Source of the DNA: an uncultured Candidatus Woesearchaeota archaeon
Lineage (GTDB): Archaea > Nanobdellota > Nanobdellia > UBA10117
Length of the DNA stretch: 41,635 nucleotides
Direction of reading: 5' to 3'
NCBI GenBank assembly: GCA_903864915.1
Contig: CAIPHS010000001.1
Location: forward strand, 1 to 41,635
Shown: positions 18,112 to 23,249 of the stretch, piece after piece
Layout of the letters: every line of letters begins with the position of its first letter
How positions within the stretch are numbered: the stretch's first letter is position 1
Notes under the pieces: generated by a model
Database searches by the model: none
What the model saw: only the letters and a program-made list of their open reading frames with translations
Told to the model about the DNA's origin: nothing
Made by a program: the position numbers and the translations under genes

Positions 18112-18160
18112 CTCTTAGTATTAAACCAAACTTTAAAAACAGCTATTGGTAGTTTTTGTT

Positions 18161-20515
18161 ATGGCACTAGCGGCTAAGCCTGACTTCAAGGCAATTGAGG
18201 CCAAATGGCAGAACTTCTGGCTAGACAAGAAAATCTTCAAGTTTGACAAGAAATCCAAGAATCAGATTTTTGCAATTGACGCGCCACCGCCAACAGTTTC
18301 CGGCGGGCTGCATATAGGGCATGCAGTAAGTTACACTCATTTTGATGTCATGGGGCATTACATGAGGCAGAGAGGCTACAACGTCCTGCAGCCAATAGGC
18401 TTTGATGACAACGGGCATCCTACTGAAACATTCGTTGAGAAGATGCACAAGATTGCGTCTAAAAATATGGACAAAACCGAGTTCAACAACATAGTCCTAA
18501 AGGAAATACCAAAACTCGAGGAGACTTACAAGAAAGATTTGATTGGTTTGGGCCATGGTTATGATTGGGATTTGACATACAAGACAATAAGTCCTGAATC
18601 GATGAAGCTTGTTCAGACGTCATTCTTGGACTTGTACAACAAAGGCTTGGCATATAGGAAAGAAGCACCCACAATCTGGTGCACGAAATGCCAGACTGCA
18701 CTCGCACAGGCAGATTTGGAAGACAAGGAAAAGGAAACTAAGTTGAATTATCTTAATTTCAAAGTTGACAAGAGTGTTATAGAAATTGCAACGACAAGGC
18801 CGGAATTCCTGCCTGCCTGCGTCGGAATATTTGTCCACCCTGATGACAAGAAATACAAGAAGTTTGTCGGAAAGGAAGCTGAGGTGCCGATATTTGGCCA
18901 GCATGTCAAGATAATGACTGATGAGAAGGTTGATCCGAACTTCGGAACTGGCGCAGTCATGATTTGCACGTTCGGTGACAAGACAGACATAGAATGGTGG
19001 CGAAAGTACAAATTGCCATTAAGGATGATACTCACAAAAGACGGCAAACTAAACGAGCTTGCCGGCAAATATGCTGGCCAGAAGATAGAGGAGGCCAGAA
19101 AAAATATAATTGCAGACCTGCAGGAAATGAATGTTCTGAAAAAGCAGGAACCTTTGAAACAAACTGTTTCAGTTTGCTGGAGATGCCCGACACCAGCAGA
19201 ATACATCGTTACAAAGCAATGGTTTGTGAAATTGCTTGAAAATAAGAGCAAGTTCAAGGAGCTCGGAAGAAAAGTCGTGTGGCATCCGGAATATTTCATA
19301 AAAATATATGAAAACTGGGTAGAAAACCTGAGCGAAGACTGGCTAATCTCAAGGCAGAGGCATTTTGGCCCGCCAATACCTGCGTGGTACTGCAAGAAAT
19401 GTGGGAAAGAAATCCTGCCTGACGAGAAAGACTTGCCAGTTAATCCTGAAAAAGACAAGCCAACCAAGAAATGTCCCTGTGGCTCGAAAGAATATGAGCC
19501 GGAACATGATGTCTTTGACACTTGGATGACATCTTCATTGACGCCACAGCTTGTTTTGGGCTGGAATAACAAGAATATACCAAAAGCGTTCCCTATGACT
19601 GTGCGTCCTTCAGCTCGCGATATAATCAGAACTTGGGAATTTTACACGATTGTAAAATCATGGTATCATTTCAAAGATTTGCCGTGGACAAACACACTAA
19701 TTAGTGGCATGGTTTATGACCCCTTTACAAAAGAGGTAATGCACAAATCCAAAGGCAATGCTGTCGCACCACAGGCAGTTATTGAAAAATACGGCGCAGA
19801 CGCTTTCAGGTACTGGGCGGTCTCGTCAATAATTGGCGAAGATTTGTGGTATCAGGAAAGAGAACTGCTGCACGCACAGAAACTCCTGATAAAACTCTGG
19901 AATGTTGCAAAATTTGTGGAGATGTGGAAGGTAAAGCCGAAGAAATTCAAGCCTTCAAACACAATTGACAGCTGGATAGCTTCCAGATTAAGCCAGGTCA
20001 CAAAGAAATTTACAGAAACTTTTGATAATTATGATCCTGTTACTGCAAAAAAAGAATTGGAGAACTTTTTCTGGCATGAATATTGTGATTTTTATCTCGA
20101 AATGATAAAATACCGCCTCTACGGACAAGATAAAGAGGCAAAGGAATCAGCAGAACAGACATTATACAGCACGTTCTACAAGATTCTGCAGATGTTTGCA
20201 CCCATTTTAGTGCATGAGACTGAAGAAATCTACCAGGAATTATTCAAGGAAAAAGAAATCTCGATACATTTGACGCAAATACCTGAAGTAGAGCCTGTTG
20301 ACCCAGAAGCAGTTGAATTGGGAAACCTTGCACTCGAGATAATTTCTGAAATAAGAAAATACAAGGCGTCAAAAGGCCTTGGCCCTGGCGCTGAAATGGA
20401 AAAATTGACAGTTAAGCATCCGGATATTAAGGCGGAAAAAGTGCTTGATGAAGTCGCAAAGACGTGCAGGATAAAGCATCTGCATATTGAGAAAGGCGAG
20501 CTTTCTGTGTTATAA
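18161..20515 (+). CDS. valS: valyl-tRNA synthetase
   Basis: 784 aa. Class Ia enzyme: HIGH motif at residues 51-54 in VSGGLHIGHAV, the KMSKS counterpart MHKSKGNAV at about 527, and the CP1 editing domain with ATTRPEFLPACVGI and DPNFGTGAVMICTFGDKTD. Zinc-type pairs are CTKC and CKKC...CPCG. The anticodon domain follows (IDSWIASRLSQV; EYCDFYLEMIKYRLYG). It charges tRNA-Val. The C-terminal coiled-coil arm is short. Start ATG 18161 is 27 nt after ACTTTAAAAAC. A diverged copy of its last 15 codons lies 1.1 kb downstream, after a radical-SAM gene. Confidence 0.94.
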   Translation: MALAAKPDFKAIEAKWQNFWLDKKIFKFDKKSKNQIFAIDAPPPTVSGGLHIGHAVSYTHFDVMGHYMRQRGYNVLQPIGFDDNGHPTETFVEKMHKIASKNMDKTEFNNIVLKEIPKLEETYKKDLIGLGHGYDWDLTYKTISPESMKLVQTSFLDLYNKGLAYRKEAPTIWCTKCQTALAQADLEDKEKETKLNYLNFKVDKSVIEIATTRPEFLPACVGIFVHPDDKKYKKFVGKEAEVPIFGQHVKIMTDEKVDPNFGTGAVMICTFGDKTDIEWWRKYKLPLRMILTKDGKLNELAGKYAGQKIEEARKNIIADLQEMNVLKKQEPLKQTVSVCWRCPTPAEYIVTKQWFVKLLENKSKFKELGRKVVWHPEYFIKIYENWVENLSEDWLISRQRHFGPPIPAWYCKKCGKEILPDEKDLPVNPEKDKPTKKCPCGSKEYEPEHDVFDTWMTSSLTPQLVLGWNNKNIPKAFPMTVRPSARDIIRTWEFYTIVKSWYHFKDLPWTNTLISGMVYDPFTKEVMHKSKGNAVAPQAVIEKYGADAFRYWAVSSIIGEDLWYQERELLHAQKLLIKLWNVAKFVEMWKVKPKKFKPSNTIDSWIASRLSQVTKKFTETFDNYDPVTAKKELENFFWHEYCDFYLEMIKYRLYGQDKEAKESAEQTLYSTFYKILQMFAPILVHETEEIYQELFKEKEISIHLTQIPEVEPVDPEAVELGNLALEIISEIRKYKASKGLGPGAEMEKLTVKHPDIKAEKVLDEVAKTCRIKHLHIEKGELSVL

Positions 20516-20618
20516 GGTATTAGCTTAAAAATTCAAAACTTCGCTAAAGTTTGTTATCTGTAATTCCCTCTGGCACATTCAAGAGTAAATTTATAAGGAA
20601 TTGGTATGTGGATTGCTT

Positions 20619-21590
20619 ATGAAAGTTATGACTGTTTTAAAAAATAGATTTGTATCACATTCACCGGTTATGCTTACGCATCTTATTACTTCTTTGTGTA
20701 ATGCCAGATGTAAAACTTGTGATTTGTGGAAAAAATCATCCGAATATCGAACTGATCTTTCCAAAGAAGACGTTTTTAAATTACTTGAAAAAGCGAAGAA
20801 AGCAGGTATGGTGAGTTATACAGTGTGGGGTGGAGAACCGCTTTTACGTAAAGATTTACCCGAAATACTACAATTTGCGAAGAAAAAAGGGTTTATTACA
20901 ACGGTAATTACAAATGGGTTTTTCTTAAAAGAAAGATGTGAAGAAATTACGCCATTTACTGATTTGATGATTGTATCTATTGATTCTAACGATTCACTCC
21001 ATGATAAAATGCGTGGAGTTGAAGGAATACTGAAAAGGGCTATTGATGGAATTGAAAAATGTAAGAAAACAAAAACTAAAGTGATTATGAACTCTGTCAT
21101 AAGTAAACTAAATTTAGATAAAATAGAAGGTTTACTTGAACTTTCTAAAAAATTGAATGTTCCCATAGCTTTTGAACCAATGGATATAAATCCAGGATAT
21201 AACGAACATCTTAAAACGACTAATAAGGAATTAAAGACCGCCTTTTCAAGAATTATAAGATATAAAAAATCAGGTTATAAAGTCATCAATTCTATTCAGT
21301 ATTTGCAAAATTTTTCCAAACAAAAAAAATATGTTTGCCATGCTCCAAAATGCTACATAGCTGTTAGCGCACACGGAAAAATAGAATCTTGTGTGGGCAC
21401 TAATTCAAAATGCTGGGGTAACATAAAAGAGACATCATTTGAAGAAATATTTAATAGCCTTGATTTCAAAGATTTTTGTAAAAAAATGGAGATGTGTAAC
21501 AAGTGTAATGTCTCATGCGTTATAGAATCATCACTTATGTATTCGTTGAATCCTTGGGTTATAATAGACAAAATCAAGAATCTGTATTAG
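20619..21590 (+). CDS. radical SAM enzyme with SPASM-like C-terminus
   Basis: 323 aa. CNARCKTC (CxxxCxxC) near residue 28 would hold the 4Fe-4S cluster that cleaves S-adenosylmethionine; YTVWGGEPLLRKDL is the GGE motif. The C-terminal part (CHAPKCYIAVSAHGKIESC, GNIKETSFEEIF, MCNKCNVSC) has the spacing of a SPASM/twitch domain for an auxiliary cluster. Substrate unknown; no precursor peptide is evident nearby. AATTTATAAGG (20586-20596) puts the start at ATG 20619. Visibly more A/T-rich than valS and aRF1, and followed by a fragment resembling the end of valS: both suggest acquisition. Confidence 0.87.
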   Translation: MKVMTVLKNRFVSHSPVMLTHLITSLCNARCKTCDLWKKSSEYRTDLSKEDVFKLLEKAKKAGMVSYTVWGGEPLLRKDLPEILQFAKKKGFITTVITNGFFLKERCEEITPFTDLMIVSIDSNDSLHDKMRGVEGILKRAIDGIEKCKKTKTKVIMNSVISKLNLDKIEGLLELSKKLNVPIAFEPMDINPGYNEHLKTTNKELKTAFSRIIRYKKSGYKVINSIQYLQNFSKQKKYVCHAPKCYIAVSAHGKIESCVGTNSKCWGNIKETSFEEIFNSLDFKDFCKKMEMCNKCNVSCVIESSLMYSLNPWVIIDKIKNLY

Positions 21591-21638
21591 AAAATCAAGC
21601 ACATACGGATAGCGAAAGGCGAGCTGATGATAGAATGA
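21591..21638 (+). pseudogene. diverged remnant of the valS 3' end
   Basis: Directly after the radical-SAM stop, codons read KIKHIRIAKGELMIE and a TGA. The end of the intact valS (20468-20515) reads RIKHLHIEKGELSVL and a TAA. Nine of 15 residues match and 12 nt (GAAAGGCGAGCT) are identical. No start codon or upstream homology is present, so it cannot be a gene alone. It looks like the displaced original tail of valS. Confidence 0.55.
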
Positions 21639-21667: not shown

Positions 21668-22111
21668 ATGATTCCGGAAATAAATTTTAACTCGCAGAAA
21701 TTTTACATTCATGAAGCCATTGCCAAGAAAAGTGGAAATACGTGCGGCATAAATCAAATTTTAGAAGATTTAGTGGGTATTGAAGCAATACACGAATTCG
21801 TCTTCAAAAGCCATGATGGAGCCGAAATGCCGGTCTATGAACTAAATGAGTGTACGGAATTTCTGCCCGCTAGAGGTTTGCAGTCTGAAGTATTTCATCT
21901 TATTAAGGATAGGAATTGGCAGGAAAATGAGGGCGCACCTTATGCTTTGGTTATGATAGGTTGTGGAGACAAAGCCAAATTAATTAAGAGAAAAATTGTA
22001 ACTGCCAGACTTCAATCTTCGCTAGTTGGTTTTTACGGAAAGAGCGAAACAATTAATGCTTTCTATCTGGCGCAGTATATAAATGATAAAAATAAATCTT
22101 TGGGTTTCTAG
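21668..22111 (+). CDS. unknown protein
   Basis: 147 aa, alpha/beta, with LVGIEAIHEFVFKSHDGAEMPVYELNE and APYALVMIGCGDKAKLIKRKI. No family is recognised. TTTTTATAAG (21639-21648) is 25 nt before the ATG, giving a leaderless start. It stands between the valS remnant and aRF1. Confidence 0.55.
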   Translation: MIPEINFNSQKFYIHEAIAKKSGNTCGINQILEDLVGIEAIHEFVFKSHDGAEMPVYELNECTEFLPARGLQSEVFHLIKDRNWQENEGAPYALVMIGCGDKAKLIKRKIVTARLQSSLVGFYGKSETINAFYLAQYINDKNKSLGF

Positions 22112-22145
22112 CAGACTTTAAAAACCACTTTTGATATCTTTAGCT

Positions 22146-23249
22146 ATGGACCAGGACAAGAAGGACAAGCAAAAGAAGAAATTCCAGCTCCGAAAGATGC
22201 TTTCGGAATTGGGCAAGTACAGAGCCAGGCATACCGAGCTTATCTCTGTTTATATTCCCGCAGGCTATCAGATTCAAAACATTCTTAACCAGATTGCAGA
22301 TGAGGCCGGGACGGCAAGAAACATCAAGTCTTCAGGCACGAGAAAAAATGTCACAACCGCACTGGAAAGGATGCTTCAGCACCTGAGGCAGTACAAGAAG
22401 ACTCCTGAAAATGGCATTGCAGTTTTTGCGGGAAATATTTCCGAGAGGGAAGGCCAGATGGATGTGAGGGACTGGAGTGTTGAGCCTCCTGAACCGTTGA
22501 ATGTCAAGATTTACAGGTGTGACCAGACATTTTTCCTGGAGCCATTAAAAGAACAGATGGAAGTAACGGCAACCTATGGCCTTGTCGTGATGGACAGAAG
22601 AGAAGCCAGCGTTGCGCTCCTGAAGGGAAAGACGATTGTGCCTGTATGGTCGGATAATTCTTTCGTGCCCGGTAAATTCGGTGTCGGCGGTCAATCTGCT
22701 GGCAGAATGGCAAGAGTCATTGAAGGGATGGCAAAGGACTGGTATAAAAAAGTTGGCGAGGTTGTCAATAAAGTTTTCACACAGGAAAAAGTTAAGGGCA
22801 TTATCATTGGCGGCCCGGGCCCTACGAAGGATGAACTTCTGGCAGGCAACGCCCTCAGGACTGAAATCAAGAAAATGGTCATTGCTGTAAAAGCTGTTGG
22901 CTATACTGGGGATTTCGGCCTGAAAGAACTTGTTGAAAGGTCTGAGGATGTTTTGTCAAAAGAAGAAGTTTCAGAAGAAACTGTTGTGATGCAGAAATTC
23001 CTGCTGCTTTTGGCTACAAGACAAAATATGGTTGCTTATGGTGAGGCAAAGGTCAATGCTGCCTTGGATGCGAGGGCGGTTGATACATTATTGGTGTCTG
23101 AAAACCTGCCTGAAGCCCAGATATTCAAGTACATAGAAAAGGCAGAAGAATCAGGGGCAGAGGTAATCTCAATCTCAATAGAAACAAAAGAAGGCCAGCA
23201 GTTGGCAGGCATGGGCGGTATTGCCGCAATTTTAAGATACGCGATTTAA
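22146..23249 (+). CDS. prf1: peptide chain release factor aRF1
   Basis: 367 aa. The stop-codon-reading motif NIKS is at residues 59-62 (ARNIKSSGTR) and the peptidyl-tRNA hydrolysis motif GGQ at 181-183 (FGVGGQSAGRM). It ends translation at all three stop codons in archaea. Domain 3 ends with the family GMGGIAAILRY. The cysteine-rich zinc minidomain normally inserted in domain 3 is missing: LLVSENLPEAQIFKYIEKAEESGAEVISIS runs straight through, so the protein is about 40 residues shorter than usual. ATG 22146 follows CTTTAAAAACC by about 27 nt. It overlaps the convergent PRTase gene by 4 nt. Confidence 0.95.
   Translation: MDQDKKDKQKKKFQLRKMLSELGKYRARHTELISVYIPAGYQIQNILNQIADEAGTARNIKSSGTRKNVTTALERMLQHLRQYKKTPENGIAVFAGNISEREGQMDVRDWSVEPPEPLNVKIYRCDQTFFLEPLKEQMEVTATYGLVVMDRREASVALLKGKTIVPVWSDNSFVPGKFGVGGQSAGRMARVIEGMAKDWYKKVGEVVNKVFTQEKVKGIIIGGPGPTKDELLAGNALRTEIKKMVIAVKAVGYTGDFGLKELVERSEDVLSKEEVSEETVVMQKFLLLLATRQNMVAYGEAKVNAALDARAVDTLLVSENLPEAQIFKYIEKAEESGAEVISISIETKEGQQLAGMGGIAAILRYAI

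Follow-up and report, generated by a model that had tools for sequence, protein, structure and literature searches.

Several described systems place foreign DNA at the ends of genes. Phages and genomic islands integrate into gene 3′ ends and supply a replacement tail, as e14 does in icd and as elements do at tRNA genes; the tail carried by the element keeps the gene functional, the original tail is moved to the far end, and such elements carry integrases and have identical cores. In Thaumarchaeota, integration into the 3′-distal regions of protein genes, with a stop codon supplied by the element, has been described, and 14 of 68 mapped integrations lay in protein genes (2019, PMC6563490). In bacteria, homology-facilitated illegitimate recombination has been described in three naturally competent species and in E. 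coli conjugation (PMC3240628). Little is understood of gene acquisition in symbiotic archaea whose genomes are very small.

We analysed a stretch of 41,635 nucleotides (the window) from a 0.65 Mb metagenome-assembled genome (MAG) of a Woesearchaeota archaeon (G000, 82.65% complete; 645,532 of 650,790 bases read), in which an earlier note had pointed to a second copy of the end of valS behind a radical-SAM gene. Its relatives for comparison were MAGs of Woesearchaeota, Pacearchaeota, Nanoarchaeota and Aenigmatarchaeota, whose GTDB class we take to be Nanoarchaeia. The features on which the argument rests are the following.

18161..20515, + strand: valS, valine--tRNA ligase, intact (NF009687, 970.9 bits against a cut-off of 738)
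20468..20515, + strand: valS tail now in use, encoding RIKHLHIEKGELSVL and a stop
20491..20502, + strand: current-tail copy of the identical 12-nt core GAAAGGCGAGCT
20516..21590, + strand: minimal insert (spacer, promoter, radical-SAM gene), delimited by GC of about 0.31 against about 0.43-0.45 in the flanks and by the adjacency of valS and prf1 in G001 and G004
20590..20597, + strand: putative TATA-like box TTTATAAG, read from the sequence, about 26 nt upstream of the radical-SAM ATG
20619..21590, + strand: radical-SAM/SPASM gene, 323 aa (PF04055 and PF13186 above cut-off)
21570..21578, + strand: first copy of AAAATCAAG, read from the sequence, in the end of the radical-SAM gene; repeated at 21591-21599 in the remnant
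21591..21638, + strand: displaced second valS tail (the remnant), encoding KIKHIRIAKGELMIE and a stop
21614..21625, + strand: displaced-tail copy of the identical 12-nt core GAAAGGCGAGCT
21668..22111, + strand: ORFan of 147 aa (GC3 0.35) separating the remnant from prf1, without Pfam or NCBIfam match
22146..23249, + strand: prf1 (aRF1), ancestral downstream neighbour of valS (TIGR03676; synteny)

The valS gene matches its NCBIfam model over its full length, the host frame being kept open by the tail that adjoins the insert, which reads RIKHLHIEKGELSVL and ends in TAA. The remnant (AAAATCAAGCAC...GAATGA, translating as KIKHIRIAKGELMIE and closing with TGA) begins right behind the TAG stop of the radical-SAM gene (21588-21590), with 0 nt between. 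Both tails lie on the same strand with coinciding stops and agree at 27 of 45 nucleotides and 8 of 15 residues, including the 12-nt run, and their similarity is confined to the tail, ceasing at its ends. A profile made solely from the valS tails of other genomes ranked the remnant second among the 83,176 six-frame 15-mers of the window, the real tail being first. Scored against its own genome's tail, the remnant reached 43, compared with a maximum of 38 over 60 six-frame shuffles of the window, and it was the best stop-anchored tail copy across 94 valS loci. Of 2,451 mismatched pairings of tails and regions in G000, a single one scored above 30; at 91, it is presumably a homologous pair. The second, diverged valS 3′ end at 21591-21638 is real, as the earlier note had proposed; the converse idea, that the remnant derives from some other gene to which it aligns better, was looked for and rejected, as the profile points to valS.

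The note had also described the inserted segment as richer in A/T than valS, and the composition bears this out: the radical-SAM gene has a GC content of 0.31 and a GC3 of 0.25, valS 0.42 and 0.48, and most genes in the window have a GC3 of 0.40-0.56 (about 0.47). A few further genes fall under 0.40, among them a GNAT gene, the genes 1408+ and 23246-, and the 147-aa ORFan; the remnant itself has a GC3 of 0.60, measured over 15 codons only. The radical-SAM protein has an intact CxxxCxxC motif (CNARCKTC) and scores 176 bits against TIGR03961 (PTO1314-family radical SAM), under the cut-off of 306, which makes it a relative of that family and not a member. Its best relatives in the class match at E of about 1e-38 and about 30-34% identity, and a search of about 380 genomes of the class gave no homologue above about 34%; within its own family, weak relatives occur in G001 and G002 only. 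Phage, plasmid and IMG/VR records yielded distant radical-SAM proteins or none. No homologue of the 147-aa ORFan was found in 56 relatives, and this gene is possibly foreign as well; its TATA-like box starts at the remnant's stop codon.

The genes around the insert give a second view of it. In most genomes of the order, pheS, valS and prf1 form one neighbourhood. G001 and G004 (genera other than that of G000) have prf1 right next to valS, and in other genera various genes separate the two. The insert therefore splits an old valS-prf1 pair, and does so where insertions are tolerated. The window lies on a single MAG contig, which leaves some room for misassembly, although the synteny argues against it. 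Two further observations concern the flanking genes. Upstream of valS and prf1 (18127-18164 and 22112-22149) lies a promoter-like stretch of 38 nt, 76% identical between the two genes, with a TTTAAAAAC box about 25 nt upstream of the ATG. Also, the prf1 frame is about 790 aa long at locus L267 (G080) and in G007 C56, against the usual length of about 370, probably because of an intein.

The evidence on which of the two tails is native points both ways, in a comparison over 15 codons with a remnant that is free to decay and with relatives from outside the genus of G000. Position towards prf1 favours the remnant, whereas similarity favours the current tail: the valS tails of relatives have 7-9 of 15 residues in common with the current tail and 4-7 of 15 with the remnant, and those of G001 and G004 match neither copy clearly. 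The expectation in the earlier note that relatives without the insert would end like the remnant therefore did not hold.

Copies of gene tails anchored at a stop codon were then searched for behind valS ends and all other gene ends, with a sensitivity limited to short tails. Of the 634 gene ends in G000, only the one in the window clearly has cargo. A total of about 2,400 gene ends from Nanoarchaeia-class genomes yielded five further cases in which 0.5-1.2 kb of cargo separates a gene from a displaced copy of its tail. DNA-level copies at a threshold of at least 16 occurred at 15 of 1,740 gene ends outside G000, compared with 0 in mismatched pairs, and 9 of the 15 remained after removal of tandem and repeat paralogues, five of them with cargo and four being short duplications free of cargo. 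High-scoring control matches at L336, L313, L120, L234, L281 and L250, and at G000 C3:16749, C11 and C7, were judged tandem or repeat paralogues (similarity extending upstream, or repetitive proteins), and the copies at L049 and L241 were at chance level. A valS copy 5.8 kb downstream at L267 was rejected as an isolated match beyond prf1 and the genes after it.

The second valS case lies in a Nanoarchaeota MAG (L107), where the tail TTTAARGTGGAGTTTTTGTAG flanks a two-gene insert on both sides: valS ends TTTAAGGTGGAGTTTTTGTAG, and TTTAAAGTGGAGTTTTTGTAG follows about 1.1 kb downstream, directly after a nucleotidyltransferase gene of the MNT family that closes with TAA and is itself preceded by an uncharacterised 132-aa ORF. 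At L322 and L248, the gene with the displaced tail is prf1, and the cargoes are small-protein pairs of the DUF2283 and PBECR2-like kinds. At L242, MNT and HepT genes stand between the host gene, by our own reading a TrmB-like regulator, and its displaced tail, into which HepT continues in frame. Gene order and the partners (MNT, DUF2283, PBECR2-like) are our grounds for calling these pairs toxin-antitoxin, as the 132-aa (L107), 110-aa (L322) and 76-aa (L248) cargo proteins matched no named family in our searches. L054 was picked because it encodes a relative of the window's radical-SAM gene. This relative, which lies on the opposite strand with its frame broken in two, parts what we read as a DHH-family gene from its displaced tail, which abuts the gene for ribosomal protein S3Ae; in L058, the nearest relative, S3Ae comes right after the DHH gene.

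Across these cases the displaced tails are short throughout (about 7-17 codons). In three of them (the window, L107 and L322), 0 nt lie between the stop of the cargo and the start of the displaced tail. Five of the six tail pairs contain an identical run of 12-24 nt, L054 having one of 9 nt only, and the identical cores have no sequence common to different host genes. No recombinase was found in any of these inserts. The earlier note had thought a synthetase gene end an unusual place for such an event, but the site is not special, as the same arrangement stands at prf1, the TrmB-like regulator and the DHH-family gene. The converse view of valS as a dedicated hot spot was likewise rejected: of 209 distinct valS ends with downstream DNA, 197 have at least 1 kb of it, and cargo with a displaced tail is found only at the two in the window and L107, so that insertions at valS appear sporadic. 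Separately, some short duplications of gene 3′ ends carry no cargo. At L146 (G007), the last 19 nt of valS lie within a 31-bp unit present in three tandem copies, and further duplications sit 49-94 nt downstream of prf1 in G003 (L153; 55 nt), of eIF5A at L072 (94 nt) and in G000 C3 near 48576 (49 nt); some of these cargo-free copies have diverged.

The codons of the tail pairs carry a signal of their own. In the six pairs with cargo, 18 of 31 changed codons are synonymous, compared with 4.9 expected under random change, a count that 0 of 200,000 simulations reached; without the window, the proportion is 14 of 20. Taken singly, the window pair (4 of 11, P=0.027) gives weak codon evidence. Because the differences are mainly synonymous, each tail of a pair seems to have served as a functional gene end in a lineage of its own before the two met, which argues against duplication in place and for DNA that arrived with its own version of the gene end.

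Two homologous tails with foreign-looking cargo between them and a split ancestral pair thus mark the window, and the arrangement recurs elsewhere. We consider it probable that a foreign valS 3′ end, together with the radical-SAM gene, entered the end of the resident valS by recombination, with an exchange of tails. In the incoming DNA, the radical-SAM gene would have lain behind a diverged valS 3′ end; with the homologous tails exchanged, valS would have stayed intact, one tail serving it today and the other being displaced about 1.1 kb downstream as an untranslated scar behind the radical-SAM stop. The left joint would most likely reflect homologous recombination in the 3′ part of valS, and the true left border of the insert may accordingly lie inside that gene. 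The right joint would be a short-homology or illegitimate one, flanked by the AAAATCAAG repeat (21570-21578 and 21591-21599), a possible micro-homology. Integration of a small circle carrying cargo and gene tail would be an equivalent route. Against this explanation stand the slightly closer match of relatives' tails to the current tail than to the remnant, which lends its simple version (the remnant as native tail) no direct support, the possibly foreign ORFan beside prf1, and the weak codon evidence of the window pair; the relatives in which valS and prf1 adjoin, moreover, are of other genera. In its favour, and in support of the earlier note's claim of a foreign insert with a substituted valS tail, are the split pair, the distance of the radical-SAM relatives (at most about 34% identity), the recurrence and the synonymous differences between tails. 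The explanation is also favoured by the profile match of the remnant, by the low GC3 of the radical-SAM gene and by the mosaic valS of this family (described below), which shows that recombination does occur inside the gene.

The main rival, which we regard as somewhat unlikely, is a site-specific cassette: a small circle of cargo with an att site mimicking a gene 3′ end, inserted by a recombinase acting in trans, so that the tails are attL and attR and the identical stretch is the core. The precise abutment of cargo stop and displaced tail in three loci, the in-frame run-in at L242, the uniformly short displaced tails and the identical runs in five of six pairs all suit such a cassette, and Thaumarchaeota provide a precedent with a 13-bp att site and an element-supplied stop at a protein-gene 3′ end (PMC6563490). 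However, the inserts lack a recombinase, the run at L054 is short, cores of different host genes have nothing in common, and the limited sensitivity of the scan may account for the short tails. Only the radical-SAM gene lies between the valS tails, with no integrase or casposase of its own, and in the 82.65%-complete genome no integrase exceeds its Pfam cut-off; the best PF00589 match (15.6 bits against 27.1) sits elsewhere in the genome, outside the insert. Nothing seen here would mark the insert as an element of the kind found at tRNA genes, to which the earlier note had likened it. A transposon with target-site duplication was also considered and rejected: there is no inverted pair at the insert ends and no transposase between the tails, and the tail copies are 60% identical.

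Quite unlikely, in our assessment, is displacement of the whole gene, by which a donor valS with its radical-SAM gene overwrote the resident valS save for the last 15 codons. In situ displacement is established for other genes, and segments of the G000 valS do group with different genera: codons 110-540 join G005 (100/100) and codons 565-700 join G002 (100/98), and the last 85 codons (700-784) give no resolved grouping and a long branch. On these trees, valS recombines within the gene, between genera, in this family. However, some of this recombination probably took place in the relatives (G005, G002) and not necessarily in G000, since PheS groups G005 with G003 and G006; the mosaicism shows recombination in the family and does not locate a crossover in G000. 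Additionally, the GC3 and codon use of valS are native-like nearly throughout. Two observations from these comparisons stand apart: valS at L143/L003 (G005) is split near codon 100 into two frames by a 1-nt shift, either a sequencing error or a real frameshift, and prf1 at L322 showed no clear mosaic end when compared with L328 of the same genus.

More doubtful still is a tandem duplication of the valS tail by slippage or repair, with the radical-SAM gene arriving later between the copies. Cargo-free duplications do exist (the 31-nt unit in three copies at valS of G007, and those at 55 nt for prf1 of G003, 94 nt for eIF5A of L072 and 49 nt in G000 C3), but a useless duplicate should change at random, whereas the tail pairs differ mainly synonymously, as in all five changed codons among the last 11 at L054. 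A chance resemblance between remnant and valS tail is hardly credible: although the match comprises just 15 codons with 8 identical residues and was selected by the earlier note out of a long sequence, an independent profile ranks it second in the whole window, and the stops align exactly in the expected strand and place.

The same arrangement across such archaea points to a common route by which new genes enter at the ends of essential ones. We raise tentatively, as a possibility, that archaea of the Nanoarchaeia class exchange recombinase-free cassettes that hold a single enzyme or a toxin-antitoxin pair in about 0.5-1.2 kb, with a short essential-gene 3′ end as landing sequence that would permit a tail swap at the ends of essential genes in other species and leave the old tail as a scar. 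The repeated scar, a displaced tail right behind the cargo, provides a searchable mark of insertion; it places the entry of toxin-antitoxin pairs beside essential genes for translation, with no recombinase in sight, and a comparison of occupied with empty sites can put the mechanism of joining to the test. In the part of the open literature covered, no description was found of small cargo without a recombinase or of its recurrence in this class.

Compared with e14 and the elements at tRNA genes, the tails here have diverged. Homology-facilitated illegitimate recombination (PMC3240628) resembles our proposal in having one homologous and one illegitimate joint and in allowing small linear DNA to integrate, but alone it would not predict a right joint always within the last 7-17 codons. 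The thaumarchaeal elements (PMC6563490) are like the present case in using the 3′ ends of core protein genes, in having a short direct repeat and in replacing the gene end with a new stop. They are, as we understand them, proviruses, casposons and others that bring a recombinase or casposase, whereas here the cargo is 0.5-1.2 kb without recombinase, and the tails are homologous at the codon level with mainly synonymous differences. Integration at protein-gene 3′ ends is thus already known in archaea; what would be new is recombinase-free cargo, as toxin-antitoxin pairs or single enzymes, in this class.
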